A stretch of DNA of 64,000 nucleotides from contig NZ_QGGB01000005.1 of the NCBI RefSeq assembly GCF_003150675.1, positions 124,001 through 188,000 of the forward strand, written 5' to 3'. Origin of the DNA: Rhodohalobacter mucosus. Its GTDB lineage: Bacteria > Bacteroidota > Rhodothermia > Balneolales > Balneolaceae. The position numbers were made by a program, and so were the translations under genes. Positions 1,677-17,755 of the stretch are shown one piece after another; within the stretch, counting starts at the first letter, position 1; each line of letters starts with the position of its first letter. The notes below the pieces were generated by a model. That model was not told where the DNA came from. It saw nothing but the letters and a program-made list of their open reading frames with translations, and did not search any database.

Positions 1677-1737
1677 AGAGAAGGAATGAATATGCGATTA
1701 GTTGGGAACTTTTTAGTCAACCTATAAGTTGATTACC

Positions 1738-2301: not shown

Positions 2302-2305
2302 TACC

Positions 2306-3022
2306 ATGACTGATATAAAGAAAAAAATAGCTGAAGTAGCTGAGAAAGATAAAAGCAAGTGGCTTGAAAAAGCTAAATATCGTCGTGAAAATCGTGATTG
2401 GTTAGTGAAATCAAAGCGTATAGCTCTGCGTGTACTCGGTGTGCTCAAGGAAAGAGGTATGCAGCAGAAAGAGTTGGCGGAAAAGTTAGGGGTATCCAAA
2501 CAGCAGGTGAGCAAAATTGTGAAAGGAAAAGAGAACCTGACTCTCGAAACAATTTCAAAGCTTGAGAAAGCTTTGGAGATATCTTTGTTAATAATTCCAA
2601 GCCATAAATCTGAATCAGATCAACAAGAGAAACCAGCTAGAGCTCAAGTAGATCAATTTAGTAAATTAAAGGAAACAGCAACTATTCTTTCACAAATTGA
2701 ACCGCAATTGATTAGTTATCTGCAAGTAGCCATGGATTCTGAAGAATATGCTGCTCGTGAAAGTGTCAAAAGAACATTTATTAATCTTTTTGATGAAATC
2801 AGAAGAGATGAGACTAAAGATAACAAGTACTTGTTTAGTTATTTGTTATCTGATGTACGTCATCAATACATTAACACAGTTAAAGAAGAGGTTAGGAATA
2901 GTTTTGCAAAAAATATCCCTACTGTTAAAACACACTTCTCCTCTAAAGTCAAATGGACTCAAGCAAATAAGCAGGTTTGGGAATCACCTGAGGATAAACC
3001 AAAAATGATGCTTGTTGGATGA
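2306..3022 (+). CDS. XRE-family HigA-like antitoxin with long C-terminal extension
   Basis: This 238-residue protein has a classical helix-turn-helix at about 40-93 (QKELAEKLGVSKQQVSKIVKG), typical of XRE/HigA antitoxins that bind their own promoter. A predicted helical stretch follows (about 115-205). The tail ends in a tryptophan-bearing segment (KVKWTQANKQVWESPEDK, about 215-232). In known TAC systems the antitoxin carries a short C-terminal chaperone-addiction (ChAD) sequence that exposes aromatic residues and makes the antitoxin unstable unless a SecB-like chaperone binds it. The W-containing tail is a plausible ChAD, but that is inference. The stop codon overlaps the start of the SecB-like gene by ATGA, so translation is probably coupled. 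It is much longer than an ordinary HigA (about 100 residues), and the middle region has no assigned role. Confidence 0.75.
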   Translation: MTDIKKKIAEVAEKDKSKWLEKAKYRRENRDWLVKSKRIALRVLGVLKERGMQQKELAEKLGVSKQQVSKIVKGKENLTLETISKLEKALEISLLIIPSHKSESDQQEKPARAQVDQFSKLKETATILSQIEPQLISYLQVAMDSEEYAARESVKRTFINLFDEIRRDETKDNKYLFSYLLSDVRHQYINTVKEEVRNSFAKNIPTVKTHFSSKVKWTQANKQVWESPEDKPKMMLVG

Positions 3023-3480
3023 GTACAAAAAAAGATTTAGTGTTTGGCTTTAAATTTTCAGATATCGATACTCATGAGTTTGCCACAATTGATGAAAATT
3101 TTAAAGACTCGGAACCATCTAACCTTGCACTGTCCATTAATTATGGTGTGAATCCGGAGCTTCGGGGTGTCGGCATCAAATTCAAAGTTCAATTTGAACA
3201 AAAGAAGAAACCTTTCCTCATTATTGCAGCCACATGTGGATTTGAAATTGAAAAGAAAGCGTGGGCTAAGCTGCTGGATAAAGAGTCAAACAAATTAATC
3301 CTCCCTGAGGACTTTGCCTCCCACCTTGCCGTTTTAACCGTGGGAACCATTCGGGGAATTTTACACGAAAAAACAAAGGGTACTCCTTACAACAAATTTA
3401 TTCTACCTCCGATCAACCTGACAGAGTTGATTAAACAGGATGTTGAGATTGATTTAGAAAAGCTGGAAGAACCTGAATAG
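3019..3480 (+). CDS. SecB-like chaperone of TAC system
   Basis: This 153-residue protein resembles SecB. It has an extended beta-sheet region (FKVQFEQKKKPFLIIAATC, about 55-73) followed by a helical C-terminal part, HLAVLTVGTIRGILHEKT (105-122), and then NKFILPPINLTEL (126-138). This mirrors the SecB C-terminal pattern in which a helix containing an Arg is followed by a P-x-N-F/L segment. General export SecB genes do not normally sit beside XRE regulators, whereas SecB-TA chaperones of TAC systems (for example Rv1957 or CmdC) do. It begins within the antitoxin stop codon (ATGA overlap), so the two are likely made together. Expected role: hold the antitoxin until it can neutralise the toxin, with release on envelope stress or phage infection. 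It could also serve as a true export chaperone; a genome-wide check for another secB would help decide. Confidence 0.75.
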   Translation: MSTKKDLVFGFKFSDIDTHEFATIDENFKDSEPSNLALSINYGVNPELRGVGIKFKVQFEQKKKPFLIIAATCGFEIEKKAWAKLLDKESNKLILPEDFASHLAVLTVGTIRGILHEKTKGTPYNKFILPPINLTELIKQDVEIDLEKLEEPE

Positions 3481-3578
3481 GCACATTCCTGGATATATTG
3501 ACGTCAGAATGTTGGCGACTCGATTGGGGGTTTTGGTTTAATTACATTCATTTTTTTATAAATACCTATTAATCTGCT

Positions 3579-6332
3579 ATGGCTAAATCCTACCGGCATT
3601 CCGATAAGCGCGCTCACATTCCTTCAAAAGAAGAAGCGGGGTACGAAGATGCCAACCCCAATGTGCAAAAGGGAAAAAAGAAGTTACAAATTCCGGTAAA
3701 CCCGGTCATTGAGCGTGGCCGAGATCCGGAACTGTTCTGGATGCACAAATACAATAACGATAAGGAGATTGCTCTGCTACTGGATGCCATTGCCGGCAGC
3801 AATGATAAAGAGGAGATTAAGGAACTGGCCGCAGAGCTTCGCGAAATCGTACTGAATCCCGATTCCGGCAATGAACGCTGGAAAGAACTGCTGGAAGTGG
3901 ACATTCGCTCACTCTACCGGTATGAACACATTGCGCCCGAAAAATTGATTAAGGGGTTACATCGTCTGGTAGAGGAAAAACAGGATCAGCCTGATCTGTT
4001 TTCTACCAATGAACTATTTGGCAATGCACTTGAGAAGGATGAGCTTGAAAAGGTAAGCGAATATTACAAGCATAATGATGGTTGGAGTAACCGCCTGATA
4101 CAGGGCGACAGCCTTCTGGTAATGAGCAGCTTGTTGGAACGCGAAGGCATGGCCGGACAAGTACAGATGATTTACATTGACCCACCCTACGGCATTAAGT
4201 ACGGCAGCAACTGGCAGATGAAAGTTAATGATCGCTCGATGTCGTATTCTGATCCTGATAAGGATTTATCTGGAGAACCAGAAGTGATTAAAGCCTACCG
4301 CGATACCTGGGAACTGGGGATTCACTCCTACCTGAGCTATCTGAAAGAACGTCTGCTGGCCGCCAGGGAATTGTTAAAAGAGAGTGGGTCCTGCTTTGTA
4401 CAGATCAGTGATGAAAATGTGCACCTCGTAAGGAATTTGATGGATGAGGTGTTTGGAAGTGAGAATTTTTCATCAATGATATACTATGCTACTACCAGTG
4501 GATTTACTACTAACACGCTGAGTAGAGTTGGTGATTATATTTTATGGTATGGGAAAAATCTTAAAGAAATAAAGTACCGACAATTATTTGACGAATTAGA
4601 TCTTCCAGTAAATGACCCGAATTATCGATTTATAGAGCTCAAGAGTGGAGAAAGAAGAAAAATGACTAAACTTGAGAGAGAAAATCCTCAAAATATTCCA
4701 GATGGTGCAAGAATTTACAGGATAGGAGACCCAACCTCTCAGGGTAAAGCTTCAGAAGATGAACCATTTGAATATAAAGGTGAAATATATAGACCTGGAA
4801 ATAGGCACTGGACACATACAGTAAAGGGATTGCAAAATCTTGTTGATAAGAATCTAGTTGTAAAAACTGGAAATAATCTTGGTCTCGTAAGGTATTTTGA
4901 TAATTATAAATTAAAAGAATTGAGCAACAATTGGTTAGATACTGGAACCGGCGGCTTTAATGAGACAAAACGGTACGTTGTTCAAACTAACGCGAAAGTT
5001 GTAAAACGGTGCATTTTAATGGCTACTGATCCGGGTGATTTAGTTTTAGATCCTACTTGTGGTAGTGGTACAACGGCGTATGTTGCCGAAGAATGGGGAC
5101 GTAGATGGATAACTATTGAAACTTCTCGCATAGCACTTAATATTGCTAAAACTCGATTAATGACAGCAGCATATCCTTATTATTACTTGCATAGTGAGGT
5201 TAATATAAATCGGGGATTTAAAAAGGATGGTTCTATAAAGAAAGAGGTGACCTATAAGCCTGAATTAGACCAAATTCAAGATATCCGTCAAGGTTTTGTA
5301 TACAAGGAAGAACCGAATGTATCAATGCGACAACTTGCTTATGATGAGCCTCCAGATACAGAGACACTATATGATAAACCTTTATTAGATCAAGATAAAC
5401 TCCGTGTAACTGGTCCATTTACAGTAGAGACTCTTCAAAATTTTGAACCGGTTGCTCCCGAACAGTTGGAAGACAAAACCAACTCCGATGAAAATGGCCA
5501 GCGATTCGAAGAGCTGGTGTTTGAGCATTTGAAGTCGGCCGGTGTAAAGAATGGTATTAAAAATGAACAGGCGGTATTTAAACGAATTGAGTCGCTGGCG
5601 GATGTGTGGCTGAACGCTGAAGGATTTTATGATACCGAGCATGGTGAGCGAAAGGCGTATATGCATATCGGTCCCAAGTTCGGTACGGTGAGTAAAGAGG
5701 CTGTCAACAATGCCGTAAAAGAGTGCCGTGCCCGCGGTGATGCCGACTGGCTCATCATTCTCGGTTTCAGCTTTGAAAGCGACATCCAGAACCAGACTCA
5801 TACAACCAGTATGGGTACTTTCGAAGTCACCAAAGTACGCATGCATGATGATCTATTGCAGGAAGGCCTACTCAAAAAAGACAAAAAAGCGGCCTCCTTC
5901 ATAACAATTGGTGAACCCGATATCAAAGTGTCACCGTTGGAGGAAGATACTGACAAAGTGCAAGTCGAAATCCTCGGCCTCGATATCTACGATCCCATCA
6001 AAGACCAGGTAAAAGCCCGTAACCGCAAAGACATTGCCTACTGGATGGTGGACGATGATTATGATGGCAGCAATTTCGTTGTGAAACAGATTTTCTTTTG
6101 TGGCGGCAGTAAAGATGAATTCAAGGATTGGGAAAAAGGCCTCAGCGATCTGGCCAAACAGAGCCAAAAACGAAATGCCGAACGCACTCTCAAAATTGAA
6201 ATCGACGACGAAGCCTTCGACCGGCTATACGGATTTAAATCCCACCTCATCAAGAAGAAAGAAGGCCAAAAAATTGCGGTTCGGGTTGTGAGTCAGTTTG
6301 GGGAGGAGAGTACGAAAGTTGTGGGGGTTTAA
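3579..6332 (+). CDS. Site-specific DNA methyltransferase (type III-like Mod, beta class)
   Basis: This 917-residue protein transfers methyl groups from S-adenosylmethionine to adenine or cytosine amino groups. The catalytic motif IV is DPPY at residues 201-204 ([13 protein letters not shown]). The SAM-binding motif I ([10 protein letters not shown]) lies near residues 488-497. Motif IV before motif I is the beta-class order used by type III Mod subunits. The segment between them holds the target-recognition region. About 300 residues of C-terminal extension follow, as seen in partners of BPTD_3080-like nucleases. The gene is separated from the nuclease gene by the TAC cassette. Base composition shifts inside the gene: roughly 4440-5460 is visibly AT-richer than both flanks (for example 20 G+C in 4741-4800 against 34 in 5701-5760), consistent with recombinational exchange of the recognition domain. 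The modified sequence is unknown. Confidence 0.9.
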
Positions 6333-6473
6333 TATTGTTTATTTATGCATTTCATTACATAATTTAATTTGAAATGTATCTAGATGCACTGCGCAAGCTG
6401 CGTCATCACAATCGCAGCGCCGCACTCCGCGCTTATCTGGGCTGATCCATCCCTCAACCTATGAGTTTATCGA

Positions 6474-6505
6474 AGCCGCTCTCCCAATCGGGAGCGGCTT
6501 TTTTT
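6474..6505 (+). terminator. Rho-independent terminator
   Basis: A GC-rich hairpin with arms AGCCGCT(CT)CCC and GGGAGCGGCT, a 4-nt AATC loop and a 2-nt bulge is followed by a run of seven T. It lies about 140 nt after the methyltransferase gene and 60 nt before the sensor kinase gene, so it insulates the restriction locus from the two-component locus. Confidence 0.85.
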
Positions 6506-6512
6506 ATGATGC

Positions 6513-6532
6513 AATCACATGAACATGTGATT
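6513..6532. promoter_or_regulatory. Inverted repeat, putative response-regulator site 1 (upstream of sensor kinase)
   Basis: A perfect inverted repeat has 9-bp arms around an AA spacer. Its core is TCACATG-AA-CATGTGA at 6515-6530, a 7-2-7 layout typical of NarL-family operators. It ends 35 nt before the sensor kinase start, so it may overlap the promoter or leader and serve autoregulation. Near-identical sites precede three downstream lipoprotein genes. Confidence 0.55.
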
Positions 6533-6565
6533 TGACCCTGTCTGTGAACTTGTTAGCTTTTATGG

Positions 6566-9442
6566 ATGCTGAAATACTGGCTGATCATACAGTTTGGGTT
6601 TCTTTTCACAGTGTTGTCACTCCCTGTGAACGGGCAGATCATGCCGTTCCGAAACTACTCCATTGATGTGGGTCTGAGTGAATCCGTGGCTCACGACCTT
6701 ATTCAGGATGAGCGGGGATATGTATGGGTTGCAACCGGTTACGGCTTGAACCGGTTTGATGGCAATTACTTCAGGCAGTTCTACGAGGATGACGGGCTTG
6801 CCAATAATAAGGTCAACTCACTCTACCAGGATTCAGAGAAAAAAATTTGGGTAGGCACTGAAACCGGCATCTCACTACTTGAAGATGATTCTTTGCACAC
6901 TCCTTCCCATCTCACAGGACTGAATCAATTTGCGATACGCTCCATTTTTGAAGACAATCAAGGCTCATTCTGGTTCGGCACGGACGAAAACGGACTTTGG
7001 AAACTGGGCCCTGATAACGAGCTCTATTCTGTTTCAGAACGATTGAATATCCCGGCGGTCTCGGTAAGGGCTATTGATCAGTCGGCAGACAATACCATCT
7101 GGGTGGCATCACGTGAAGGTGTTGTTCGGATAAATGATGGTGAGGTTGTTCATTACGATAAGGATGACGGACTGCCTGAATTAAGGGTGAGAGATATCGT
7201 TGCAGATGATTATGGACGTGTTTGGGCAGGTTCAAGGTCGGGCCTGGCTCTTTATCAGAACGGGAGTTTTCGTCTCTACACGCAGAATGACGGACTCAAT
7301 GACAATCGGATTCAATCGATTACGGTAGAATCGGAAAACCGTATATGGCTGGGCACAGAAAATGGCGTTTCCCTTTTTAACGGACAGGATTTTGTGAATT
7401 ATACGCGTGAAAACGGACTGCCTGCTACCATCATCTATGATACCATGAAGGACCGCGAAGGCAATATATGGTTCGGCACCCTGGGCGGCGGAATAAGCAT
7501 CTATTCCGGCGATATCTTCTACAGCTATACGATAGACAACGGGCTTCCAAATAACGTGGTAAACGGTTTTGAAGAAGATGAAATGGGCAGAATCTGGGCG
7601 GCTACGTTTGGCGGGGGGTTGGTCATTATTGATGACGGAGAATTTTCCTATTTCACTGAAGAAAACGGACTGATTGACAATAAAGTCTATGCGATTTACA
7701 GAGATAGTTTTAACCGAATGTGGATCGGGACCAATGAGGGGATATCAGTCTACGAAAATGGTGAGTTTCGCACATTTGAGCTAGACGGAGTTCAGCTCAG
7801 AACCGTAAGGAAATTTTTCGAGGACCCCGAAACCGGCGACTTCTGGATCGCTACCTACAATGACGGACTATTTCGTCTTCGGGATGGTGGGTATGAGCAA
7901 TACCATACAGGAAATGTATTGACCAATAATACGGTGATGGATATCAAAAAACATTTCAATGGTGATATGTGGTTTGCCACCTACGGCGGCGCGGTACGCT
8001 ACGACGGGGAAGAATTTCACTTTGTTACCATTGCGGACAATCTTCCAAGTAACGGCGTAATTCACATTCATATTGATCAGAATGGGGAAGTCTGGTTTTC
8101 CACCTTTAACGGGCCCGCTTACTATAAAGACGGGCGGGTACAGCGAATTCTGCGAACCGACAGAACCGAGTCGATTTTCTACTACACCGAGCAGGATTCT
8201 TTTTTCCGGTACTGGTTTGGTACCAATACGGGGTTATATCTGTTCAGGAAGTCTGAATTTGATACGCACACCACAGAGCTGGAGAGAATGCTTTCATACC
8301 GATTGTATACCACAAAGCAGGGCCTTATAGCCAATGAGCTCAATGCAGGGGCTTCGCTGCTCGCATCTGACGGCAGTATGTGGCTGGGCACGGTTGAAGG
8401 ATTGAGCCGTTTTTTTCCGGATAGAATTCAGAAAAACAGAGTGCCGCCCGGACTTGAATTTCAGGAGCTGCTGATGAGCGGTACGCCCGTTCAAAATAAC
8501 CGGAAATGGCAGTTCAAATACGATCAGAACTTTCTTCAGGCTACATTTATCGGCCTTACTTATGAGGCCCCTGAGCAGATTATTTATGAACACAGATTGA
8601 GAGGGTATAACGACTGGCAGCTTACAATGGAAAACAGTGTAAACTACCCGGAACTTCCTTCTGGTGACTACCGTCTTGATGTGAGGGCCTACAATGCAGA
8701 CGGTACGCGAAGTACGAAAACAGCATCCTTTGAGTTTAAAATATTCCCTCCCTTTTATTTGCAGACATGGTTTTTGCTGCTGGTCATTGCTGCGATTATC
8801 GGGTTGGTATTATTCTCCGTTCGTTATTTCAGGGTTACCAAACAGGTGGATATGGAAAAGATGCGGGTTCAGATTGCAAGCGATCTGCACGACGATGTGG
8901 GATCTTCACTGACTGAGCTGGCGCTGCAGACAGATTTTCTTCAGGCTGTTGAGCTCAACCCGGAAGTGAAAGACACGCTCAAACAGATTGGTGAACACAG
9001 CAGGAAAATCGTTTCGAGCCTGGATGATATTGTTTGGTCGATCGATTCCCGGAATGATACGGCCGGAGACCTTACAGACAGAATGCAGGATTACGTGAAC
9101 CACATTTTTGTAAACGGCCACGCTGACGTGTTTTATCACTTCGAAGATCTGCAGATGGACCAGAAGCTGCCTGTGGACGTTAAAGAAAATATTTACCTGA
9201 TATTCAAGGAGTCCGTTAACAATGTAGTGAAACACTCCAATGCGACCCGGGTGGATATCTATTTTTCATTCAATGGCAAAAACTATGAACTTGTGATCCG
9301 CGACAACGGAACGGACAGCAATACAAACCGGAAATCGGGCCAGGGTTTAAGGAATATGAAAATGCGCGCCGAAAGGATCGGAGCGGATATATCCATCGAG
9401 CCGGGAGACGGATTTACGGTGGAAATGAAGGGAACCGCGTAG
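6566..9442 (+). CDS. Two-component sensor histidine kinase with periplasmic beta-propeller (Reg_prop/Y_Y_Y) domain
   Basis: This 958-residue protein has a signal peptide (1-24). A long series of propeller repeats with the recurring I/MW-x-G/A-T/S-x-x-G signature runs through about residue 640, followed by a Y_Y_Y-type immunoglobulin-like domain (about 655-722). One transmembrane helix lies at about 730-752. The cytoplasmic kinase has a HisKA_3 H-box, ASDLHDDVGSSL, with His775 as the likely phosphorylated residue, and a GHKL ATPase with N-box KESVNNVVKHS and a GQGLRNMKMRAERIG region. This is the layout of one-membrane-span propeller sensors common in Bacteroidota, here without a fused response regulator. 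The partner regulator follows 46 nt downstream. The signal sensed is unknown. In gut relatives such sensors detect glycans, but the neighbours here are lipoproteins and not glycan-use genes, so an envelope cue is as likely. Confidence 0.93.
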   Translation: MLKYWLIIQFGFLFTVLSLPVNGQIMPFRNYSIDVGLSESVAHDLIQDERGYVWVATGYGLNRFDGNYFRQFYEDDGLANNKVNSLYQDSEKKIWVGTETGISLLEDDSLHTPSHLTGLNQFAIRSIFEDNQGSFWFGTDENGLWKLGPDNELYSVSERLNIPAVSVRAIDQSADNTIWVASREGVVRINDGEVVHYDKDDGLPELRVRDIVADDYGRVWAGSRSGLALYQNGSFRLYTQNDGLNDNRIQSITVESENRIWLGTENGVSLFNGQDFVNYTRENGLPATIIYDTMKDREGNIWFGTLGGGISIYSGDIFYSYTIDNGLPNNVVNGFEEDEMGRIWAATFGGGLVIIDDGEFSYFTEENGLIDNKVYAIYRDSFNRMWIGTNEGISVYENGEFRTFELDGVQLRTVRKFFEDPETGDFWIATYNDGLFRLRDGGYEQYHTGNVLTNNTVMDIKKHFNGDMWFATYGGAVRYDGEEFHFVTIADNLPSNGVIHIHIDQNGEVWFSTFNGPAYYKDGRVQRILRTDRTESIFYYTEQDSFFRYWFGTNTGLYLFRKSEFDTHTTELERMLSYRLYTTKQGLIANELNAGASLLASDGSMWLGTVEGLSRFFPDRIQKNRVPPGLEFQELLMSGTPVQNNRKWQFKYDQNFLQATFIGLTYEAPEQIIYEHRLRGYNDWQLTMENSVNYPELPSGDYRLDVRAYNADGTRSTKTASFEFKIFPPFYLQTWFLLLVIAAIIGLVLFSVRYFRVTKQVDMEKMRVQIASDLHDDVGSSLTELALQTDFLQAVELNPEVKDTLKQIGEHSRKIVSSLDDIVWSIDSRNDTAGDLTDRMQDYVNHIFVNGHADVFYHFEDLQMDQKLPVDVKENIYLIFKESVNNVVKHSNATRVDIYFSFNGKNYELVIRDNGTDSNTNRKSGQGLRNMKMRAERIGADISIEPGDGFTVEMKGTA

Positions 9443-9487
9443 CGAACAGGCTGTGCGGACAATTAAATCAGAGAAGGAGGAACAGAT

Positions 9488-10120
9488 ATGATTGAAGTAG
9501 GAATCGTTGAAGACAATGTAAAAATCAGAAATCTTATCCAGCGCTACCTGGACATGCAGGAGAATATGAGCTGCAAGGCCGCCATGGATTCTGTTGAAGA
9601 GATGCAGGAGCACCTGAGCAAGCATGATCCGCCGGATGTGCTTTTGATGGATATCCAGCTCCCCGGAATGTCAGGGATTGAGGGTATCGGACTGATCAAG
9701 AAAGAGTATCCTGAAATTGAAATACTGATGCTCACCGTCTATCATGACTCGCACAAGATTTTTGACTCCCTTGTTGCCGGTGCATCCGGGTATCTGTTGA
9801 AGCATACCTCTCTGCCGGAGATCAAGGAGTCGATCGAAAATCTGATCGAAGGCGGCGCACCCATGTCGCCCCAGATTGCACGCAAGGTGATTCAGCACTT
9901 TAACAAACCCGAGACGGAAAAAAAGCCGGAAAGTGATCTTACGGCAAGGGAACAGGATATTGTAAACGGGCTGGTGGATGGCCTGAGCTACAAAATGATC
10001 GCCGATCGCTTTGATATCTCCATCGATACGGTACGCGCCCATATCCGGAATATTTACAAGAAACTGCATGTGAACTCGAAAGCAGAGGTCATTGCCAAGT
10101 CACTGAGGGGGGAAATATGA
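9488..10120 (+). CDS. NarL/LuxR-family response regulator
   Basis: This 210-residue protein has a receiver domain at about 1-120. The acidic pocket is E8/D9, the phosphoacceptor is Asp55 (LLMDIQLPG), Thr83 is the switch residue and Lys105 completes the site. The C-terminal GerE helix-turn-helix (about 150-206) carries LTAREQDIVNGLVDG and TVRAHIRNIYKKLHV. A strong Shine-Dalgarno sequence (AAGGAGG at about 9474-9480) precedes the start. The gene forms an operon with the upstream propeller kinase, its likely phosphodonor. NarL-type regulators bind heptamer pairs in a 7-2-7 arrangement, and exactly such a motif occurs upstream of the kinase and of the three lipoprotein genes that follow. One copy begins 3 nt after this stop codon. 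Those genes are therefore its inferred targets. Confidence 0.93.
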   Translation: MIEVGIVEDNVKIRNLIQRYLDMQENMSCKAAMDSVEEMQEHLSKHDPPDVLLMDIQLPGMSGIEGIGLIKKEYPEIEILMLTVYHDSHKIFDSLVAGASGYLLKHTSLPEIKESIENLIEGGAPMSPQIARKVIQHFNKPETEKKPESDLTAREQDIVNGLVDGLSYKMIADRFDISIDTVRAHIRNIYKKLHVNSKAEVIAKSLRGEI

Positions 10121-10122
10121 TG

Positions 10123-10138
10123 TCACATGATCATGCGA
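10123..10138. promoter_or_regulatory. Inverted repeat, putative response-regulator site 2
   Basis: TCACATG-AT-CATGCGA is a 7-2-7 inverted repeat with one mismatch between the arms. It begins 3 nt after the response regulator stop codon and ends 65 nt before the first lipoprotein start. The spacing matches sites 3 and 4, which supports activator binding upstream of the promoter. Confidence 0.55.
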
Positions 10139-10203
10139 TAAAAAGCCATCATTATTATGAATACTCTTTAGTAATTAATTACGCTAACTAATAGAGTGCC
10201 ACA

Positions 10204-11235
10204 ATGAAATCCAGTATAATACATCTGTTGATATATATTACGGGGCTGTTGGCTTTATCAGGTTGTTACACATCGTTTAAAACAATTACGCCGGAAGAAT
10301 CTGAGTATATTAACGGGATGGGGGAGGCGACACCCGTTGATGATCGCTGGATTGAGGCGAGCGGTCCATATTATTTTGTCGATTACAGTGCAAGAGAGTG
10401 GTACGGATATGCCGGAATCGATTTGGCAGGTGATACCACGTCTTCAGTAATGGCCAGTTTCCGCCAGCAAAACCCAACCAGATCCTACTGGTTTTCAACC
10501 TACGGAGGTTCATTTTTTTACAACTACCCCGGATATACAAACAGCTACCTGTATAGCACGTTCGGACCCTTTGTACTGGGCAATGCCAATATTATTCCTG
10601 GCGTCTTTCATCCGCCCTACTTTTCGAACCAGTATACGTACAGCTTCTTTTATGACAGATGGGCACAGTGGTATTACTGGGATAGTGAGCGGCCGAACAG
10701 TTGGTGTTACAACCCATTCCAGCTATCCGCATTTTATGGGTCAAGCCTTCCTTGCGGTGAATCGACAAGTACATCTTTAGCACATTCAAACTATGATAAT
10801 AATAAGGTTTTAAGGGATAGATTGGGTGTGAATCCTGCTTTTAACAGAAGTGAAAAAGACAGAGTGGGTGAGGACCCTGATCTTAATATAGGTGAAAGGG
10901 ACAGGGTTCTTGCGAGAAAATTTGACGAAAATGGCGTAAGGGCACTCCGAAGCCGGACAGAGATATTACGCAACAGGATTAATAATGTGAGAGTGGAACA
11001 GATAGAGACCGGCATTAGTCGTGAAGCTCAAATGATAAGATGGGCCATCGAGTATCATGAGAGAAACCGCTCATCAAGGAGCACATTTTCAAATTACAAC
11101 CGGAATTCTTCCAGAAACAGCGGTGTCTCTCACAATTCAGGTATCAGCAGAACAGGCTCCTCGGTTAACACTTCATCCGGATCATCAGGCCGCACCAGGA
11201 GCGGTACTTCAACTACAAGAGAGAATAATAATTAA
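10204..11235 (+). CDS. Lipoprotein, paralogue 1 of 3 (unknown function)
   Basis: This 343-residue protein has a lipoprotein signal: hydrophobic segment 5-18, then LALSGC with Cys21 as the lipidated residue. The mature start, CYTSFKTI, is nearly the same in the two following paralogues. The middle part is rich in Tyr, Trp, Phe and Gly (about 60-185) and suggests a compact surface or periplasmic domain. The C-terminal third is charged, then Ser/Arg/Asn-rich, ending in GRTRSGTSTTRENNN. It shares the motifs WI(D/E)A, YFVD and a W-Y pair with paralogues 2 and 3 but is the most divergent of the three. It has its own promoter region with a 7-2-7 operator-like site. No known domain was recognised. 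An outer-membrane or cell-surface stress role is a guess from the lipobox and the two-component context. Confidence 0.8.
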   Translation: MKSSIIHLLIYITGLLALSGCYTSFKTITPEESEYINGMGEATPVDDRWIEASGPYYFVDYSAREWYGYAGIDLAGDTTSSVMASFRQQNPTRSYWFSTYGGSFFYNYPGYTNSYLYSTFGPFVLGNANIIPGVFHPPYFSNQYTYSFFYDRWAQWYYWDSERPNSWCYNPFQLSAFYGSSLPCGESTSTSLAHSNYDNNKVLRDRLGVNPAFNRSEKDRVGEDPDLNIGERDRVLARKFDENGVRALRSRTEILRNRINNVRVEQIETGISREAQMIRWAIEYHERNRSSRSTFSNYNRNSSRNSGVSHNSGISRTGSSVNTSSGSSGRTRSGTSTTRENNN

Positions 11236-11426
11236 CGATATGTCCTGAGATTCCGAAGGGATTCATCACGGGTTGTTTTAGAGTACTGATTTTGGCTGAC
11301 TGTCCTGCTTTGGATCAGTCAGCCTTTTTTAATATATGGGCTTTTGAAACGGGTGCAGCCTACTACGCTATCCACTATGCTAAAGCTTCGCAGGCCAAGG
11401 GGCTACAGGGTTCAAGGTACAAGGTA

Positions 11427-11533
11427 CCCCGAAGACTCGGAGCTGCGAACAGCACGCAGCAGGTTCAGGGTGAAATCTAAATCAAAGATCTCCGACCACT
11501 AATCTCCAATCGGATATCTTGATGGTTCAGGCT
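11427..11533 (-). repeat. Dispersed intergenic repeat, copy A
   Basis: This segment lies in the 712-nt spacer between lipoprotein paralogues 1 and 2. It closely matches copy B at 13002-13107, with the landmarks CTGCGAACAGCACGCAGCAG, CAAAGATCTCC and CCAATCGGATATCTT in the same order. Read on the minus strand it also resembles the copy near 57.0 kb, which has the corresponding CTGCGTGCAGTTCGCAG and a CCCGAGACTTCGGG-like hairpin. Short trailing repeats (CAGGCTGCAGGC, CATCAGGCGGCAGG) extend it to about 11560. There is no coding signal. Confidence 0.7.
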
Positions 11534-11577
11534 GCAGGCATCAAGCATCAGGCGGCAGGTTTAATTATCGGTGCCAC

Positions 11578-11816
11578 TCTTTAGCCAGGAATTGACAAAC
11601 GCTGCAGGCGTGGCCATATCATAGCCGCCGATTTTAATCAGCGGTTCGTTGATCGCCAACTAAGGTTCCTCCGGGGCCGGATTTAATCAGAACCTCTTTT
11701 CGTATCGAGGAGGCAATGGGAAAGATTCTATAGGTCGCCGACGCCATCTTTTTGGTTATCATCATGCTTTGACTGGCAAACGTATTCGTGAAAACGGAAG
11801 CATCAGGGTAGGACAC
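11578..11816 (-). pseudogene. Possible degraded gene fragment in spacer
   Basis: On the minus strand two protein-like segments sit in different frames: a run containing YPDASVFTNTFASQSMM and IFPIASSIRKEVLI, then, after a frame change near 11650, IKIGGYDMATPAAFVNSWL. The pattern suggests a frameshifted and truncated remnant. The original family is not recognised. It could equally be chance open frame in a spacer. The rest of the 11236-11947 spacer holds repeat copy A and the operator-like site. Confidence 0.25.
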
Positions 11817-11867
11817 CCGTTAAAATTATGTGACTGGTAAAATGTCTTGTAACAGAGTGAAAATTGC

Positions 11868-11885
11868 ATCACATGGAAATGCGAT
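11868..11885. promoter_or_regulatory. Inverted repeat, putative response-regulator site 3
   Basis: The core is TCACATG-GA-AATGCGA at 11869-11884. It is followed by the same ATATGAT tail as site 4. It ends 63 nt before the start of lipoprotein paralogue 2. The left heptamer is identical at all four sites; the right heptamer varies at two positions. Confidence 0.55.
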
Positions 11886-11947
11886 ATGATAAAACTCAAT
11901 GAGGTATTATTTTTTCAGAACATATATAAAATAAGCCGGTACCTGCT

Positions 11948-12955
11948 ATGACATTAACATTTCGGATTCACACAGTTCTGCTGCTCTCCACCCTGTTTTT
12001 TGTATCAGGCTGCTATACACATATGCAGACTACAGAAAGGGAATCAGATGCCGGATACTATGAAACCGGACAGCAAAAGGTACCTGAAAGATATACAGAT
12101 ATTGAGAACCGTGAAGATGAAGCAGTAAACACGGAGGAGTATGTAGCCGGTGACAAGAGCGGATGGATAGACGCGGACGTGGCCTATTTTGTAGATGAAG
12201 AAAGCCGCAACTGGTACCTGGAGCACGGCATTTCACTCGCCTACGGCCATAGCTATCCCTATCGTGCCGGTTACCGGCAGGTGTACGATCCAAACTGGTT
12301 TTTTTCACCCTACGCGTATTACACATATGAGGGCGAATACTTCATTGTTCCGGGTTTGAGGAATCCATACAGCAATTATTTCGGCGGGTGGAAGCCATGG
12401 AGAAACATAGGTTACAATCACCTCTATGCCTATTACAACTACCGCCCGTTATTTTTCTGGGGCAGGCTCAACTACGATTATTATGGTGGTTTATACTATA
12501 GTCCGCACATTTTTGCCGGATATCAGAAGGGTTGGAACAGCTACAACAATCGTATTACAGCAGAGGCGAGGGTCCATAATGATGATCGGGAGTACAACTT
12601 CACAAGCAACCCGCGAATAATAAGGCCGGTTGATGATAGATTAGGTTCAGTGCGGACAGAAATATTGCGAAACAGGATATTACACCGGGATTTTGAAAGG
12701 GTACAGAGAGACGCCGCCCGCGTAAACCTTACCGAGAGACGGGCTGAAGAGTATCGCGAAAGACTGGAGAGAAACAGGGCGGCCAGAAAAATGCATCTGA
12801 ATGCAGGACGCAGTACATTTTCAACAAGGCGCAGTGAAGCGGGCGGTAACCGATCCGGATCCGTTGAAAGAAGGTCATCAGGTCATGTTTCATCCGGATC
12901 ATCGTCCGGCCGAAGCAGAAGCGGTACATCCACTACAAGAGAGAATAATAATTGA
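11948..12955 (+). CDS. Lipoprotein, paralogue 2 of 3 (unknown function)
   Basis: This 335-residue protein has a lipobox FFVSGC with Cys22 lipidated after a 15-residue hydrophobic core. An acidic linker follows (about 30-70), then a block shared with paralogue 3: ADVAYFVDEESRNWYLEHG (about 77-95) and YDPNWFFSPYAYYTY (about 112-126), then a Tyr/Gly/Trp-rich region. The C-terminus is basic and helical (about 225-280), then Ser/Arg/Gly-rich, ending in the same RSGTSTTRENNN tail as paralogue 1. It is preceded by an operator-like site at 63 nt. Gene and spacer look like products of tandem duplication, since the downstream spacer carries a repeat (copy B) matching the spacer after paralogue 1. No enzymatic motif was seen; function is unknown. 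Confidence 0.8.
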   Translation: MTLTFRIHTVLLLSTLFFVSGCYTHMQTTERESDAGYYETGQQKVPERYTDIENREDEAVNTEEYVAGDKSGWIDADVAYFVDEESRNWYLEHGISLAYGHSYPYRAGYRQVYDPNWFFSPYAYYTYEGEYFIVPGLRNPYSNYFGGWKPWRNIGYNHLYAYYNYRPLFFWGRLNYDYYGGLYYSPHIFAGYQKGWNSYNNRITAEARVHNDDREYNFTSNPRIIRPVDDRLGSVRTEILRNRILHRDFERVQRDAARVNLTERRAEEYRERLERNRAARKMHLNAGRSTFSTRRSEAGGNRSGSVERRSSGHVSSGSSSGRSRSGTSTTRENNN

Positions 12956-13001
12956 TGAAATAGCATTGACAGAGTTGTAAGAGGAGATTATTTACAGGGT
13001 G

Positions 13002-13107
13002 CCCCGAAGTCTCGGAACTGCGAACAGCACGCAGCAGGGTCAGGGTAAAATTTAAATCAAAGATCTCCGATCACTAATCTCCAATCGGATATCTTCATGG
13101 TTCAGGC
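13002..13107 (-). repeat. Dispersed intergenic repeat, copy B
   Basis: Near-identical to copy A over about 105 nt and in the same position relative to the upstream lipoprotein gene. This indicates that gene plus spacer were duplicated together, or that the same repeat was retained in both. The remaining 12956-13419 spacer holds only an AT-rich stretch (13200-13260) and the operator-like site at 13335. Confidence 0.7.
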
Positions 13108-13334
13108 GGCAGGTTTGATTTAAGGCAACACTATTTATTCCGGAAATTTCTCACATCGCTCATCATTCATCACTCATCGTCCATCAACCACTGTCTATTC
13201 GCGCCCGCGCTTATTTATCAGTATCTTTTAACTTTAATTAAAAGAATTCTATTGCTGCAAGTGGAACAAATCAGGTTGTGCACCCGTTAACTATATACAA
13301 TTGGCAAAAAAGGAGATAAAGCCAGCAAAAGTGC

Positions 13335-13352
13335 ATCACATGGAAATGCGAT
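13335..13352. promoter_or_regulatory. Inverted repeat, putative response-regulator site 4
   Basis: Identical over the site and its tail to site 3 (TCACATG-GA-AATGCGA, then TATGAT). It ends 68 nt before the start of lipoprotein paralogue 3. Confidence 0.55.
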
Positions 13353-13419
13353 ATGATGCTACAGGATGAGACGTTATTTTATAAGTAGAACATACAAGTG
13401 ACATGAGCCGGAGGCTGTT

Positions 13420-15078
13420 ATGACATCAAGAATACTAAACCATACAGTACTACTACTTTTTACCGCAATGTTTGCGTCAAGCTGCTACACACAGCTTGAA
13501 ACCGTGGATAGAAGGGGGTATGACGGATACTATCCCGCAACACAGAGAGCAGCTCCTGAAAGACGCGCACCGGTGGAGGAGCGCGCAGACGAAATTGAGA
13601 ATGTGGAAGACTACGAGCTGGGCTATGAAGACGGCTGGGTAGATGCGGAATCCTTCTATTTTGTAGACGAAGAGACCCGCGACTGGTACCTGGAACACGG
13701 CGCTTCCCTTGCCCACACAAAAAGCCATTCATACCGCTCAAACTACATGCGTCCGTATGATCCGGACTGGTTCTACTCACCCTACCATTACTACACCTAC
13801 TATGGTGTGCCGCACTGGAGACACGGGTTTTCCATCCACTTCGGCTGGAGCAGGCCATGGGGATACTTTGGATTCGGATCCCATTTCGCCTATAACCGTT
13901 ACTACTATGGTGGGTTTTATGACTATGGATACTATCGCTACCCGTTTTACGATCCATTTTACTATGGCGGGTACTGGAGCGGATGGTACGGTTACTACAA
14001 TCGCCCGGTCGTGATCTATAACAACAATATTGTTAGCAATCGCAATTACAGTGCCAGAAGTACAGGCCTGGCTTCTTCAAGACGATCCACCATCAACCGT
14101 ACGCGTCCCGATATTAACAGCAGCCGTTCTGCAGTTCGTGCCAATGCAAGATCTTCACGAATCGACAGCCGGTCGGCCGCACGCAGCACGGTTAGAAGCA
14201 GAGGCACGAGTACCCGAAGCAGCGTAGGCAGCCGATCAACCGGCCGTACCACAAATCGGGGGACCGTGAACCGTTCGGGCTCTTCAAGCCGCGGAAGCAG
14301 CGGTTCTGTGGGCAGAACACGCAGCAATAATCGTTCTTCCGGCAGCTCGGTAAATCGCAGCCGAAGCAACAATAATCGATCATCCGGAAGTTCAGTGAAC
14401 CGAAGCCGGAGCAGTAACCGCTCTTCAGGCAGTGCAGTGAATCGCAGCCGAAGCAGCAGTCGTTCAAGCGGTTCATCCGCATCGCGAAGCCGATCCAATA
14501 ACCGGCAGGCGGCAGCCGTTCAGTCGTCATCACGTTCAGATGTCCGATCAGACGTACGGTCCAGCATCATCAGCGGTCAAGGCAGCAGCGCAATCATCCG
14601 AAGAGGAGAAATAGCAAACCGTGAAAATACAGGCCGCACAATCAGAACAGAACGTTCATCAGGAAGATCAATGGAATCGACTTCTGCAAGGGAAAGCTTA
14701 CTAAACCGTGCAGTTCCAGGTCAGCGCAGTTCCGGTATTGATATCGAAAATCTCCGGCCTGTAAACGTACCCCTGCGATCTGCGACGCGATTAAACCGTG
14801 AAGCGGCCCGGTCAGGATCAAGCTCGTTCGGCAGAATACTGCTGCGTGGAGCTACCCAGGCGGCATCGTCTGTGTTGCGTGAAGCAGCGGGCAGCAGCCG
14901 CTCTTCCAGATCCTCGTCTGTTGGCAGGTCATCATCAAGAAGTTCATCCGGTTCATCCGCAGTCCGAAGTTCCGGATCGTCAAGCCGGTCATCCGGAGTG
15001 TCCAGGTCTTCAGGCAAATCAGGCAGCAGCCGCGGAACGTCATCATCAAGAAGCCGATCATCGTCAAGAAACAACTAA
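13420..15078 (+). CDS. Lipoprotein, paralogue 3 of 3, with very long Ser/Arg/Asn-rich tail
   Basis: This 552-residue protein has lipobox MFASSC with Cys22 lipidated. The N-terminal half matches paralogue 2: FYFVDEETRDWYLEHG, YDPDWFYSPYHYYTY, then a Tyr/Gly/Phe-rich segment (about 140-205) containing repeats such as YYYGGFYDYGYYRYPF. From about residue 210 to the end the protein is almost entirely Ser, Arg, Asn, Gly and Thr, including a 14-16-residue tandem repeat (NRSSGSSVNRSRSN type). A short non-repetitive island (about 435-490) interrupts the tail. Such a positively charged, disordered tail could bind lipopolysaccharide, nucleic acid or peptidoglycan; this is speculative. The gene has its own operator-like site. 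The FadL-like gene starts 68 nt downstream and may be co-transcribed. Confidence 0.8.
   Translation: MTSRILNHTVLLLFTAMFASSCYTQLETVDRRGYDGYYPATQRAAPERRAPVEERADEIENVEDYELGYEDGWVDAESFYFVDEETRDWYLEHGASLAHTKSHSYRSNYMRPYDPDWFYSPYHYYTYYGVPHWRHGFSIHFGWSRPWGYFGFGSHFAYNRYYYGGFYDYGYYRYPFYDPFYYGGYWSGWYGYYNRPVVIYNNNIVSNRNYSARSTGLASSRRSTINRTRPDINSSRSAVRANARSSRIDSRSAARSTVRSRGTSTRSSVGSRSTGRTTNRGTVNRSGSSSRGSSGSVGRTRSNNRSSGSSVNRSRSNNNRSSGSSVNRSRSSNRSSGSAVNRSRSSSRSSGSSASRSRSNNRQAAAVQSSSRSDVRSDVRSSIISGQGSSAIIRRGEIANRENTGRTIRTERSSGRSMESTSARESLLNRAVPGQRSSGIDIENLRPVNVPLRSATRLNREAARSGSSSFGRILLRGATQAASSVLREAAGSSRSSRSSSVGRSSSRSSSGSSAVRSSGSSSRSSGVSRSSGKSGSSRGTSSSRSRSSSRNN
14326..14505 (+). repeat. In-frame tandem repeat within lipoprotein 3
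   Basis: About four imperfect copies of a 42-48-nt unit encode NRSSGSSVNRSRSN-like peptides. Synonymous drift between copies (for example TCTTCCGGC, TCATCCGGA and TCTTCAGGC for the same Ser-Ser-Gly) shows that the amino-acid pattern is kept while the DNA diverges. This argues for selection on the protein. Confidence 0.75.
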
Positions 15079-15146
15079 CTGACCGGGAACTTAATCTGAT
15101 TTAAGCATCTATTCGATTGAATCATCTTCAACTACAGAGGAGACGT

Positions 15147-16712
15147 ATGTCCGAAAATTCCATAAAAATTACCATTCTGTCGGTTTCCCTGATTCTTACC
15201 GCAGGAGTGGGTACTTCATTAGCCCAGGTTACCGGCGCCAATCCGAATAACAGGCTTCTATACAGCAATCAGGCTACACTGTTTGGGGATTATGGGCAGC
15301 CGCTGGATCCTGTATCCCTCATATTACCGGGTACAGCCTTTGGCGCGGGATTCGGATCCTATCAGGATAATCCGGCCAGTGCGGCATTCTTCAGGGAGAG
15401 TTTTGGAGAAGCGGGCTTCTCTCTCAGAAGTGTTGAGGAAGAGTCAATCTATCGCGGCAACAGCCGTCTTGCAGATGATCAGCAGACCACGCTGTCAAAC
15501 CTGGGCGTTGTGTACGTTTTTCCAACCACCAGGGGAAGCCTGGTAGCAGGTGCAGGGTATACGCAGCACTCATCTTTTAACCGTGCACTCTCACTGAGAG
15601 CCCGGAATAACGTGAGCTCGATAACGGATAATTTTAAAACACCCGGCTCAAGCTACGCGGATATCGCATTTAACACATTTGCGACTGATTACGGAGATGA
15701 ATTTCAGGATTGGGACGAATCCATTTTCCGGATTGGTTTTGACCAGCCCGGCGATTTTCTGGGAATCGACCAGAATGCAGAAATTTTCGAGAGCGGTTAC
15801 GGAGGTGAATTTTCCGCGTTTCTGGGCACGGAGATTCGTAAAAATCTGATGATTGGGTTCAGTCTGGGATTATTAAATGGAAATTACACCTACACCAGGG
15901 CTTTTCAGGAGATTGATGGATTCAATGATTACAGCTCCGACTTTCTGGATGTGGACGGAGACGGTACAGGCGAAACCGATATTGACAGGATTTTACTGGA
16001 CGACCGGATTGAGGTCGATTATTCCGGCATAAGACTGCGCCTTGGCGCCATTTACAAAATCAACAAGCACCTCAATGCAGGCGCAAGTTATGCATTTGGT
16101 ACACGGATTCAGGTAGACGAACTTTTTTCAGCCAACATAGCCACCACTTTTGATAACGGTGAGATGTTCGAAGACGATATCGATTCAGAATTCCGATACT
16201 TTTTTACTTTTCCGGCCAGAACATCACTTGGATTGGCTGTAACCGATTATAAAGGCTTGACAATTTCAGCCTCGGCTGAGTATGTGGACTATTCGGGAAC
16301 TGAAATCGACTTTGTGCAAAGCCGGCTTCTGGAAGATCAGCAGATCGAAAATGAATTTATCAGTGAAACTTTTTCCCCGGTATGGAACGTAAGGGTTGGC
16401 GCTGCCTATGATCTGAGCCCGTTTGCTACATTGCGGGGTGGATTTGCAGTTTATCCCGATAAGTTTGAGACGAGCGATAATGACCGGGGTGTGTTACTGT
16501 TCGGAGCAGGCTTTACACTCACGGACAATGTTCGTCTGGAACTTGCCGCACAATACACAAACTGGGAAGAGACCTCTGCGGTTTATGATTATGCCGAGTA
16601 TGATTACTCCGATCTTCCGGACTCCTCGCCCTCGTTTACAATTGGATCGGAAAATGCAAACCGCAATGCAGACCGCTGGAACATGCTGGCCACGATAAAA
16701 TTCGGGCTGTAA
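15147..16712 (+). CDS. FadL/OmpP1-like outer-membrane beta-barrel protein
   Basis: This protein has 521 residues from the ATG at 15147, which has an AGAGGAGA ribosome-binding site just upstream. An upstream TTG at 15117 would add ten residues ahead of the signal peptide and is rejected. The signal peptide is about 1-27 (hydrophobic core ending SLAQ). The mature N-terminus contains PLDPVSLILPGTAFGAGFGS and QDNPAS, resembling the N-terminal hatch of FadL/TodX transporters (NPAA-type motif). The rest alternates in beta-strand fashion and ends with an aromatic-hydrophobic strand (MLATIKFGL) typical of barrels. Expected role: uptake of hydrophobic compounds across the outer membrane. It follows lipoprotein 3 and may belong to the same regulon, although no operator-like site lies directly upstream. 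Confidence 0.8.
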   Translation: MSENSIKITILSVSLILTAGVGTSLAQVTGANPNNRLLYSNQATLFGDYGQPLDPVSLILPGTAFGAGFGSYQDNPASAAFFRESFGEAGFSLRSVEEESIYRGNSRLADDQQTTLSNLGVVYVFPTTRGSLVAGAGYTQHSSFNRALSLRARNNVSSITDNFKTPGSSYADIAFNTFATDYGDEFQDWDESIFRIGFDQPGDFLGIDQNAEIFESGYGGEFSAFLGTEIRKNLMIGFSLGLLNGNYTYTRAFQEIDGFNDYSSDFLDVDGDGTGETDIDRILLDDRIEVDYSGIRLRLGAIYKINKHLNAGASYAFGTRIQVDELFSANIATTFDNGEMFEDDIDSEFRYFFTFPARTSLGLAVTDYKGLTISASAEYVDYSGTEIDFVQSRLLEDQQIENEFISETFSPVWNVRVGAAYDLSPFATLRGGFAVYPDKFETSDNDRGVLLFGAGFTLTDNVRLELAAQYTNWEETSAVYDYAEYDYSDLPDSSPSFTIGSENANRNADRWNMLATIKFGL

Positions 16713-16855
16713 CACACCAGAATAGTCTGCCGTTAGACGGCTTTATTCAGCAGATGAAGCAAGCTTCAATTGACTAACTGCAGGATGCAAGCCGCAATGG
16801 GAAGGGAAGGGGGCTGGTGTACCCTTTCATCCTAATTTAACGTGCATATCATTCG

Positions 16856-17755
16856 TCACTCATCCGTGTCGACCACGATCTCTTCATCCTCTTCCTGGCG
16901 CGGGTTTACGCTCAGTACGGCCGTTTTTACATGGCGAACCAGGTTGGCCGTAGTACTTCCCATCATGAGATAGTTAATGCCCGTGCGGCCCACGGTCGAC
17001 ATCACAATGAGATTGTAGGGGTTATCCTGCACATAGTTATAAATGGCTTCGTGCGGTGAATCCTGCGATACAATCACTTTAGAGGTAATATTGCCTTTGA
17101 ACTTATGGAAATGCTCTTTTTCAAGCAGCTTGATACGGTCTTCCCTTATTTTCTGGAGTGACCGGTCCTCCTCGATGGTGTCGAACTGATCGAAGCTGAG
17201 AATATGGATCAGGTCGAGGTCGGCGCCGGTTTTTTCGGCGATATTCACAGCATGCGGGTAGGCAACGGTTGCATTATCGGAGAAATCGGTTGTAACCAGG
17301 ATTTTTTTGAAAGATCCCACATCCGATTCATCTTCCACCACCATAACCGGTGTATGAGAGAGCCGCAGCACTTTTTCGGCAACGGATCCGAGCAGAAAAC
17401 GCGTGAAACCGGTTCTGCCGTGAGTACTCATAATCACATAGTCGAAATCGGCCGAAATATCGATGATGCTTTGTGCCGGATTCCCCATGGCCACAACAGG
17501 GTCGCTCAGCCTGGATTCGTCTACTTTTTCTGCTGAAACGGACTTTAGCCGGTGTGTCAGATTATCTTCAATGGATTCAAAATCCTGATAAACCTGAGAA
17601 CTCATTCCCAGGGCATAGGGTTCATCGAGTTCGGAGATGGGAATGTGTGAATGAAAAGGGGTAACCGTTCCATCCATCACTTTGGCAAACGTATCGGCCA
17701 CTTCGAGGGCTTTTTCACTCAGTTCGGAAAAATCGACGGGAACAAGGATTTTCAT
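16856..17755 (-). CDS. Tandem-domain universal stress protein (UspA family)
   Basis: This 299-residue protein contains two UspA domains. The first begins MKILVPVDFSELSEKAL and contains VIMSTHGRTGFTRFLLGSVAEKVLR (given here as a region, about 130-155). The second begins near KKILVTTDFSDNA (about 168) and contains VMSTVGRTGINYLMMGS. Both have the G-x2-G-x9-G-(S/T) style nucleotide-binding pattern of ATP-binding Usp proteins. It is convergent with the FadL-like gene and divergent from hsdR. Such cytoplasmic proteins support survival under energy or envelope stress. No operon partner is present. Confidence 0.92.
   Translation of the reverse strand: MKILVPVDFSELSEKALEVADTFAKVMDGTVTPFHSHIPISELDEPYALGMSSQVYQDFESIEDNLTHRLKSVSAEKVDESRLSDPVVAMGNPAQSIIDISADFDYVIMSTHGRTGFTRFLLGSVAEKVLRLSHTPVMVVEDESDVGSFKKILVTTDFSDNATVAYPHAVNIAEKTGADLDLIHILSFDQFDTIEEDRSLQKIREDRIKLLEKEHFHKFKGNITSKVIVSQDSPHEAIYNYVQDNPYNLIVMSTVGRTGINYLMMGSTTANLVRHVKTAVLSVNPRQEEDEEIVVDTDE

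Follow-up and report, generated by a model that had tools for sequence, protein, structure and literature searches.

A two-component system and three lipoprotein genes share a palindrome

The window analyzed here is a 64,000-nucleotide (nt) stretch of the Rhodohalobacter mucosus genome (contig NZ_QGGB01000005.1, positions 124,001 to 188,000 of the forward strand), in which the genes for a sensor kinase and a response regulator are followed by three genes for predicted lipoproteins (LP1, LP2, and LP3) and one for a porin-like outer-membrane protein (Table 1). Copies of a palindrome, TCACATGNNCATGTGA, against which mismatches were scored for the four sites of the window, lie upstream of the kinase and of each lipoprotein gene. 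An earlier reading of the same DNA (the original prediction) had taken these four copies for NarL-type operators of a self-contained regulon. A motif search of the window located all four, the left heptamer is the same in each, and the positions of the open reading frames (ORFs) bear out their placement 5' of the kinase and the three lipoprotein genes. The whole set of sensor, regulator, targets, and sites spans positions 6515-15078, within the 9 kb that had been proposed, and the distance from the end of the site to the ATG, predicted as 63-68 nt for the lipoprotein genes, measures 65 nt for LP1, 63 nt for LP2, and 68 nt for LP3; it is 35 nt for the kinase. Operators 3 and 4 share a 59-nt duplicated promoter block (80% identical) and are therefore not independent, which leaves about three independent sites in the window.

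Table 1. Features of the locus, with positions numbered from the first letter of the window.
Feature	Position	Strand	Description
Operator 1, TCACATGAACATGTGA	6515..6530	+	Perfect palindrome, 0 mismatches; 5' of the kinase-regulator genes
Putative -33 element, TTTG	6531..6534	+	Abuts operator 1; T, T, T, G in 24, 22, 23, 20 of 24 aligned kinase promoters
Putative -7 box, kinase promoter, TAGCTTTT	6554..6561	+	TAnnTT at position 24 after the site
Sensor kinase	6566..9442	+	958 aa; Reg_prop propeller repeats, Y_Y_Y, HisKA_3, HATPase_c
Response regulator	9488..10120	+	Receiver plus GerE (LuxR/NarL) helix-turn-helix (HTH); separate ORF
Operator 2, TCACATGATCATGCGA	10123..10138	+	1 mismatch; 2 nt past the regulator stop codon, 5' of LP1
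Possible -7 box, LP1 promoter, TACTCTTT	10162..10169	+	Position 24 after the site; partial match
LP1, predicted lipoprotein	10204..11235	+	Lipobox LSGCYT; Ser/Arg-rich tail
Operator 3, TCACATGGAAATGCGA	11869..11884	+	2 mismatches; 5' of LP2; in duplicated block D4 with operator 4
Putative -7 box, LP2 promoter, TATTTTTT	11908..11915	+	Position 24 after the site
LP2, predicted lipoprotein	11948..12955	+	Lipobox VSGCYT
Operator 4, TCACATGGAAATGCGA	13336..13351	+	2 mismatches; 5' of LP3; duplicate of operator 3
Putative -7 box, LP3 promoter, TATTTTAT	13375..13382	+	Position 24 after the site
LP3, CYTQ lipoprotein, conserved core target	13420..15078	+	Acidic N-terminal segment, Tyr/Gly/His-rich middle, long Ser/Arg-rich basic tail
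FadL/TodX-like outer-membrane protein	15117..16712	+	Pfam Toluene_X (3.5e-09); 38 nt after LP3

In shuffled versions of the window, the motif with up to three mismatches was found 3.4 ± 2.0 times, compared to seven matches in the real sequence; as seven of the 100 shuffles reached the observed count, the loose motif is by itself weak proof. Across the whole 3.9-Mb genome this loose form matched 109 places, against 84 for a reversed control. The tight motif proved rare, with three places at one mismatch or less, each of them 5' of a gene (the kinase, LP1, and an unlinked lipoprotein gene). Six further places with up to two mismatches (given as contig:position: C2:28534, C3:131518, C5:105104, C5:363177, C6:35215, and C8:244959) lay within genes or had no convincing target and were not counted; the match at C5:105104 overlaps the start codon of a predicted lipoprotein ORF. 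Related genomes, and not the statistics of the window, supply the decisive evidence.

The site is kept in the genus, the family, and the order

A search of 78 genomes found LP2 homologs in 23, R. mucosus included. When the best LP2 locus of each of the 22 other genomes was compared, the matched segment was preceded, at about 70-110 nt, by the palindrome with no more than one mismatch in 21. The remaining locus (L021, genome G060) comes from another family, and its genome gave no match to the regulator. A strict pattern, TCACATGNNYATGTGA, occurred at 47 places in 25 of the 28 genomes of the genus (1-4 per genome), with a single match for the reversed control. Contigs C99 and C155 of genome G002 both end near the same operator sequence, probably at an assembly break, and the 47 places may therefore count one site twice. 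The regulator itself was found in 23 of these 28 genomes, including that of R. mucosus, with 84-91% identity in the other 22.

At the level of the order, the strict motif was present in 39 of 88 regulator-positive genomes versus 3 of 40 regulator-negative ones. The 42 genomes with an exact site all belong to one family, and the three that lack the regulator are draft genomes of the genus. Inverted heptamers with a 2-bp gap, kept in orthologous promoters, are what is expected of an operator of 7-2-7 layout, and this is the arrangement within the genus; outside the genus the strict form does not hold, as the bases next to the gap vary and the constant core is TMACAT-N4-ATGTGA, that is, a 6-4-6 core.

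The usual gene order in the family, in the loci displayed, is a primary-type sigma gene, the kinase, the regulator, the site, a CYTQ lipoprotein gene, and a FadL-like porin gene, with other genes sometimes intervening between the sigma gene and the kinase; the sigma gene, which encodes Sigma70 regions 1.2, 2, 3, and 4, is called rpoD here. Of the 64 regulator loci from Balneolales, 59 carry a site (two mismatches at most) downstream of the regulator gene, at 2-149 nt from its stop codon and in 47 cases no farther than 16 nt away. The other five comprise the unlinked case of R. halophilus, three loci cut by contig ends, and one with a three-mismatch site. When sites with up to two mismatches were counted within 220 nt upstream of each gene in the Balneolales loci read, the share of genes preceded by one was 57 of 59 for the CYT-type lipoproteins, 23 of 54 for the kinases, 2 of 59 for the porins, and 8 of 303 for other ORFs. 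Five of the last eight lie on the opposite strand, next to such sites. Because the site in the kinase promoter is missing in many genera, autoregulation falls outside the conserved core. In genome G018 the kinase-regulator pair (contig C4) and the lipoprotein-porin pair (contig C23) are unlinked, and the exact site is kept at both. For 16 of the 53 regulator genes a site with up to two mismatches lies 93-123 nt upstream; these were rejected as operators, since they fall within the 3' coding sequence of the kinase and mostly read Asn-Met-x-Met-Arg.

Candidate targets extend beyond the cluster

The notion that the regulon is self-contained had to be abandoned, because exact or near-exact sites also stand 5' of unlinked lipoprotein genes and of an unlinked ECF-type sigma gene, in R. 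mucosus as well as in its relatives. Sixty distinct exact sites were collected in the fetched loci, of which 11 precede kinase genes, 35 CYT-type lipoprotein genes, and 11 other predicted lipoprotein genes, the remaining three standing before a gene for a TonB-plug-like protein, before an ECF-type sigma gene, and at a contig end. The other lipoproteins include collagen-like (with Pfam Collagen below its cut-off), Gly-zipper/OmpA, and small "CMVSGG" and related types. The genome of R. mucosus carries such sites 5' of a collagen-like lipoprotein gene (C12:27160, 1 mismatch) and of a small lipoprotein gene (C9:86682, 2 mismatches).

The variant TAACAT-N4-ATGTGA matched 135 places in 128 genomes of the order, against 28 for the control. 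Twenty of these regions, hand-picked from other genera, were inspected: an ECF-type sigma gene lies downstream in nine (at slightly more than 200 nt in two of these), a gene for a vWA-domain-type protein in three, a collagen-like lipoprotein gene in two, and another or no clear target in the rest. Where the ORFs of these hand-picked regions were listed, we read the ECF-type sigma gene as adjoining uvrC. Within the genus, 25 of 30 ECF loci were used (L287, L288, L290, and L291 were left out as fragments, and L289 as distant), and all 25 have a site with up to two mismatches to TNACATNNNNATGTGA, against an average of 3.0 and no more than 6 in shuffled windows. In 22 of the 25 the site has one mismatch at most, and in 24 it lies at a near-constant distance. 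The R. mucosus copy, TAGCATGAAAATGTGA, is found at about C6:38149, 5' of the gene for a 220-aa sigma protein. The ECF-type sigma factor has Sigma70 regions 2 and 4, and downstream of its gene, in the position of an anti-sigma gene, comes an ORF of about 200 aa; this ORF matched no Pfam family, so that "anti-sigma" is just a guess from position.

The adjacent regulator is the best candidate for the binding factor

The regulator consists of a receiver (Response_reg, 1.5e-22) followed by a GerE domain (3.5e-15), its nearest solved relatives are VraR and then NarL, and the phosphoacceptor Asp ("lmdi"/"LMDL") and the conserved receiver Lys ("lk") align with those of VraR, all of which agrees with the NarL-family assignment that had been made. 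At a finer level the NCBIfam models stayed under their cut-offs: NarL scored 105.9 bits against a curated cut-off of 250, and the top model, MctR, reached 128.2 bits against a cut-off of 300. The recognition helix, DTVRAHIRNIY (residues 180-190), was examined in 80 regulator loci and is identical in all 64 from Balneolales. Its Ala occupies what we take to be the position of a base-contacting residue of NarL. None of the 16 outgroup regulators keeps this Ala and none has a site with up to two mismatches nearby, a comparison that is confounded by phylogeny. The closest paralog in the R. mucosus genome (41% identity) has a Tyr at the same position.

That the four palindromes are operators of a shared trans-acting factor is supported by their fixed promoter positions, kept in Balneolales; the part of the original prediction that names the adjacent regulator stands as the best candidate, given the invariant helix, the 7-2-7 layout, and the way in which regulator and site are distributed together. 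We consider it highly probable that this VraR/NarL-type regulator activates an envelope regulon through the palindromes, with autoactivation in some genera.

The strongest competing explanation, though an unlikely one, is that the palindrome is the operator of a different, unlinked transcription factor, for which the two-component system would be one target and the neighbor of another. Promoters of lipoprotein, sigma-factor, and kinase genes that carry the site need not answer to the regulator encoded next to some of them. Against this, 39 of the 42 genomes with an exact site have the regulator, wherever the site occurs the helix does not vary, and the layout suits a NarL-type dimer; moreover, the closest paralog, with its Tyr in place of the helix Ala, had no site with up to two mismatches near its gene.

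Promoter geometry points to activation

Promoters were aligned by the site; kinase rows L103 and L108, which were in-gene matches, were removed before counting. The hexamer TAnnTT begins at position 24 past the site in all 24 distinct kinase promoters and in 32 of the 58 lipoprotein promoters. Since the aligned promoters are related sequences, these counts are not independent trials; the largest counts at any offset in 1000 mononucleotide shuffles were 4 and 6, respectively. Directly after the site, TTTG is seen in the kinase promoters but not in the lipoprotein promoters. The distance from the operator to the kinase ATG is that of the window in 17 of the 24 aligned kinase promoters.

In Flavobacterium psychrophilum, the -7 box lies at -12 to -5 according to PMC9723704. 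With the boxes of Table 1 set at these coordinates, the site would span -51 to -36, centered near -43.5, and the predicted +1 falls 36 nt downstream of the end of the site in both promoter classes. In the 17 kinase sequences this is the A of the ATG (6566 in the window), which predicts a leaderless kinase mRNA. PMC4549865 places 7-2-7 sites of NarL-activated promoters at -40 to -49 (napF) and -38 to -47 (yeaR), and the location of our site in the same region favors class II activation. On the predicted transcription start, both the fixed promoter spacing and the overlap or abutment with the -33/-35 region that characterize class II activation are found.

The same geometry can be read with the opposite sign, as the site abuts the conserved TTTG of the kinase promoters and a bound dimer could exclude the polymerase: the regulator would then occupy the -33 region and repress until the signal relieves the block. 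This we judge improbable, slightly more so than control by an unlinked factor. The site, at about -51 to -36, lies where PMC4549865 puts the 7-2-7 sites of promoters that NarL activates, and the lipoprotein promoters keep the -7 box but not TTTG, which suggests dependence on an activator. Finally, a perfect inverted repeat 5' of start codons might be imagined to act as an RNA hairpin in the 5' leader, but this is very improbable, because transcription is predicted to start beyond the site, which would then not be transcribed from these promoters, and a search of positions 6300-17000 of the window with Rfam at the gathering threshold gave no match.

A proposed envelope regulon and the evidence against it

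In the mechanism that we favor, activation of the regulon by the adjacent regulator, the periplasmic propeller/Y_Y_Y part of the kinase would sense some state of the envelope, and its HisKA_3 core would phosphorylate the regulator, whose NarL/VraR-type domain would bind TCACAT-N4-ATGTGA as a dimer. Placed near -43.5, the dimer would touch RNA polymerase at a promoter of Bacteroidota type (-7 box TAnnTTTG) and so activate transcription. The conserved core output is expected to be the CYTQ lipoprotein and outer-membrane porin genes, with three lipoprotein genes carrying sites in R. mucosus, and other envelope lipoprotein genes and the ECF-type sigma gene may be activated as well. The kinase-regulator genes of Rhodohalobacter, and of certain relatives, also bear a site and are probably self-activated. 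What was computed from the genomes is the conservation of the sites, the geometry of the promoters, the candidate targets, and the co-occurrence of the site with an invariant recognition helix. From them we infer the identity of the binding protein, its phosphorylation, the sign of the regulation, and the envelope-stress signal; for the last of these the reasons are the nature of the targets and the similarity to VraR/VraS, and nothing further.

Several observations weigh against this mechanism. Binding of the operator by the regulator is predicted from co-conservation, and as the regulator adjoins the lipoprotein gene in nearly all loci seen, their co-distribution is partly a matter of linkage and shared ancestry; the contrast with the outgroup helices suffers from the phylogenetic confounding mentioned above. 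Only six of the 12 places in the R. mucosus genome with up to two mismatches could be tied to plausible targets, two lipoprotein genes lack a site (L120 and L132), and just 23 of the 54 kinase genes have one. Across the order, 49 of the 88 regulator-positive genomes lack the strict motif, the loci read there mostly having degenerate variants, and the degenerate variant TAACATNNNNATGTGA is less specific (the 135 places against 28 for the control in 128 genomes). As for the promoters, the -7 box is found in just the 32 of 58 lipoprotein promoters counted above, is partial at LP1, and is exact at just two of the listed remote promoter orientations, and a second TAnnTT occurs at position 16 in 12 of the 24 kinase promoters.

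These points do not amount to a case for repeats that are incidental, whether promoter copies spread with the duplication of lipoprotein genes or products of chance. Operators 3 and 4 do lie in one duplicated block and the loose motif is not rare, but the sites are kept across genera with divergent flanks, the strict motif gave 47 places against one in the control, and the site is present at unrelated genes. Chance or duplication as the whole explanation was therefore rejected on the shuffles, the reversed-pattern controls, and the relatives, save for the non-independence of operators 3 and 4, and we regard it as very improbable.

Comparison with known systems

Operators of 7-2-7 layout and regulators of this family are already known. 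Like the sites of NarL/NarP in Escherichia coli, the palindrome described here consists of inverted heptamers with a 2-bp gap at a similar promoter position, and the regulators share the receiver plus GerE type; the differences lie in the heptamer (TCACATG), the envelope lipoprotein targets, and the propeller-sensor kinase. The engineered NarL 7-2-7 site given in PMC4549865 is TACCCCTAAAGGGGTA, whereas the site here is TCACATGNNCATGTGA.

The kinase has Reg_prop repeats (1.6e-53) and a Y_Y_Y domain (1.4e-09, residues 666-726) N-terminal to HisKA_3; its best solved relatives are the two-component propellers 3v9f and 4a2l for the sensor and DesK/VraS for the kinase core. VraSR/LiaSR of Firmicutes thus resembles the present system in VraR as the nearest solved relative of the regulator, in VraS/DesK as the nearest for the kinase core, and in having envelope proteins as targets, and differs from it in phylum, in the target genes, and in the sensor. 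The kinases of VraSR/LiaSR are small and membrane-embedded, with no large extracellular sensor, whereas the one described here has 958 aa with Reg_prop and Y_Y_Y; the NCBIfam model LiaS scored 42.7 bits, compared to a cut-off of 450.

The propeller and Y_Y_Y sensor is shared with the glycan-sensing hybrid two-component systems (HTCS) of Bacteroides, represented by PDB entries 3v9f (described as a hybrid) and 4a2l. In contrast to HTCS, sensor and regulator are separate proteins here, with a HisKA_3 core and a NarL-type output. No polysaccharide-utilization genes were seen among the ORFs adjoining the kinase, where no search aimed at them was made. Regulons of ECF sigma factors offer another parallel, as the family carries an ECF-type sigma gene with a similar site; this gene is unlinked here and likely to be a target of the two-component system. 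MctR, the best NCBIfam model of the regulator, remained far under its cut-off.

Among the papers listed by searches of the open-licence literature, none was recognized as a study of this operator sequence, target set, or propeller-sensor combination, and none as one of such a regulon in Balneolales. Tentatively, and with much less confidence than we place in the regulator as activator, we propose an order-wide envelope-stress circuit of Balneolales, unlike Rcs, Cpx, or VraSR, which would combine a glycan-HTCS-like propeller sensor, in most cases encoded near rpoD, with a VraR-type activator; its targets would be a new class of outer-membrane lipoproteins (Tyr/Gly-rich, with Ser/Arg tails) and, forming a second tier, an ECF-type sigma factor, with a leaderless, self-activated kinase-regulator mRNA in Rhodohalobacter. 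If the mechanism that we favor is true, it would give Balneolales a core envelope regulon. The analysis yields a concrete regulator, operator, promoter layout, and candidate targets, including the ECF-type sigma gene and several lipoprotein families with no Pfam match, and it offers a tractable case for asking what propeller sensors detect beyond polysaccharide utilization and how activation proceeds at -33/-7 promoters of Bacteroidota type.

Lipoproteins, porin, and flanking genes

LP1, LP2, and LP3 had no match in Pfam or NCBIfam, and AlphaFold2, run on an alignment of 22 N-terminal segments (235 residues of LP3), returned a poor model (mean predicted local distance difference test 50.7, predicted template modeling score 0.21). 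The porin gene, found after the lipoprotein gene in most of the syntenic loci displayed, is probably co-transcribed with LP3, judging from the 38-nt gap; its product had no solved relative at E ≤ 0.1. The 3' ends of LP1 and LP2 are near-identical DNA (84% over 61 nt, 11181-11241 versus 12901-12961) encoding SGTSTTRENNN, and as the rest of the two proteins has diverged this suggests gene conversion or recent recombination. Between the lipoprotein genes lies a 121-nt intergenic repeat (11418-11538 and 12993-13113, 92% identical), which, whole or in part, matches 16 places in the genome, these two included, and so belongs to an interspersed repeat family.

The rpoD-like gene of R. mucosus (G000:C5:121556-122404) lies about 8 kb upstream of the kinase; most of the relatives displayed have the two genes close together. 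The intervening region of the window (90-6332) encodes a DNA methylase (N6_N4_Mtase), an HTH protein, and a probable restriction subunit (RE_endonuc below cut-off), and a restriction-modification island thus seems to have been inserted between the rpoD-like gene and the kinase. As a type I restriction R-subunit-like gene (17959-20673; ResIII, EcoEI_R_C, HSDR_N) lies just past the cluster and a UspA-like neighbor, the regulon is flanked on both sides by restriction genes.

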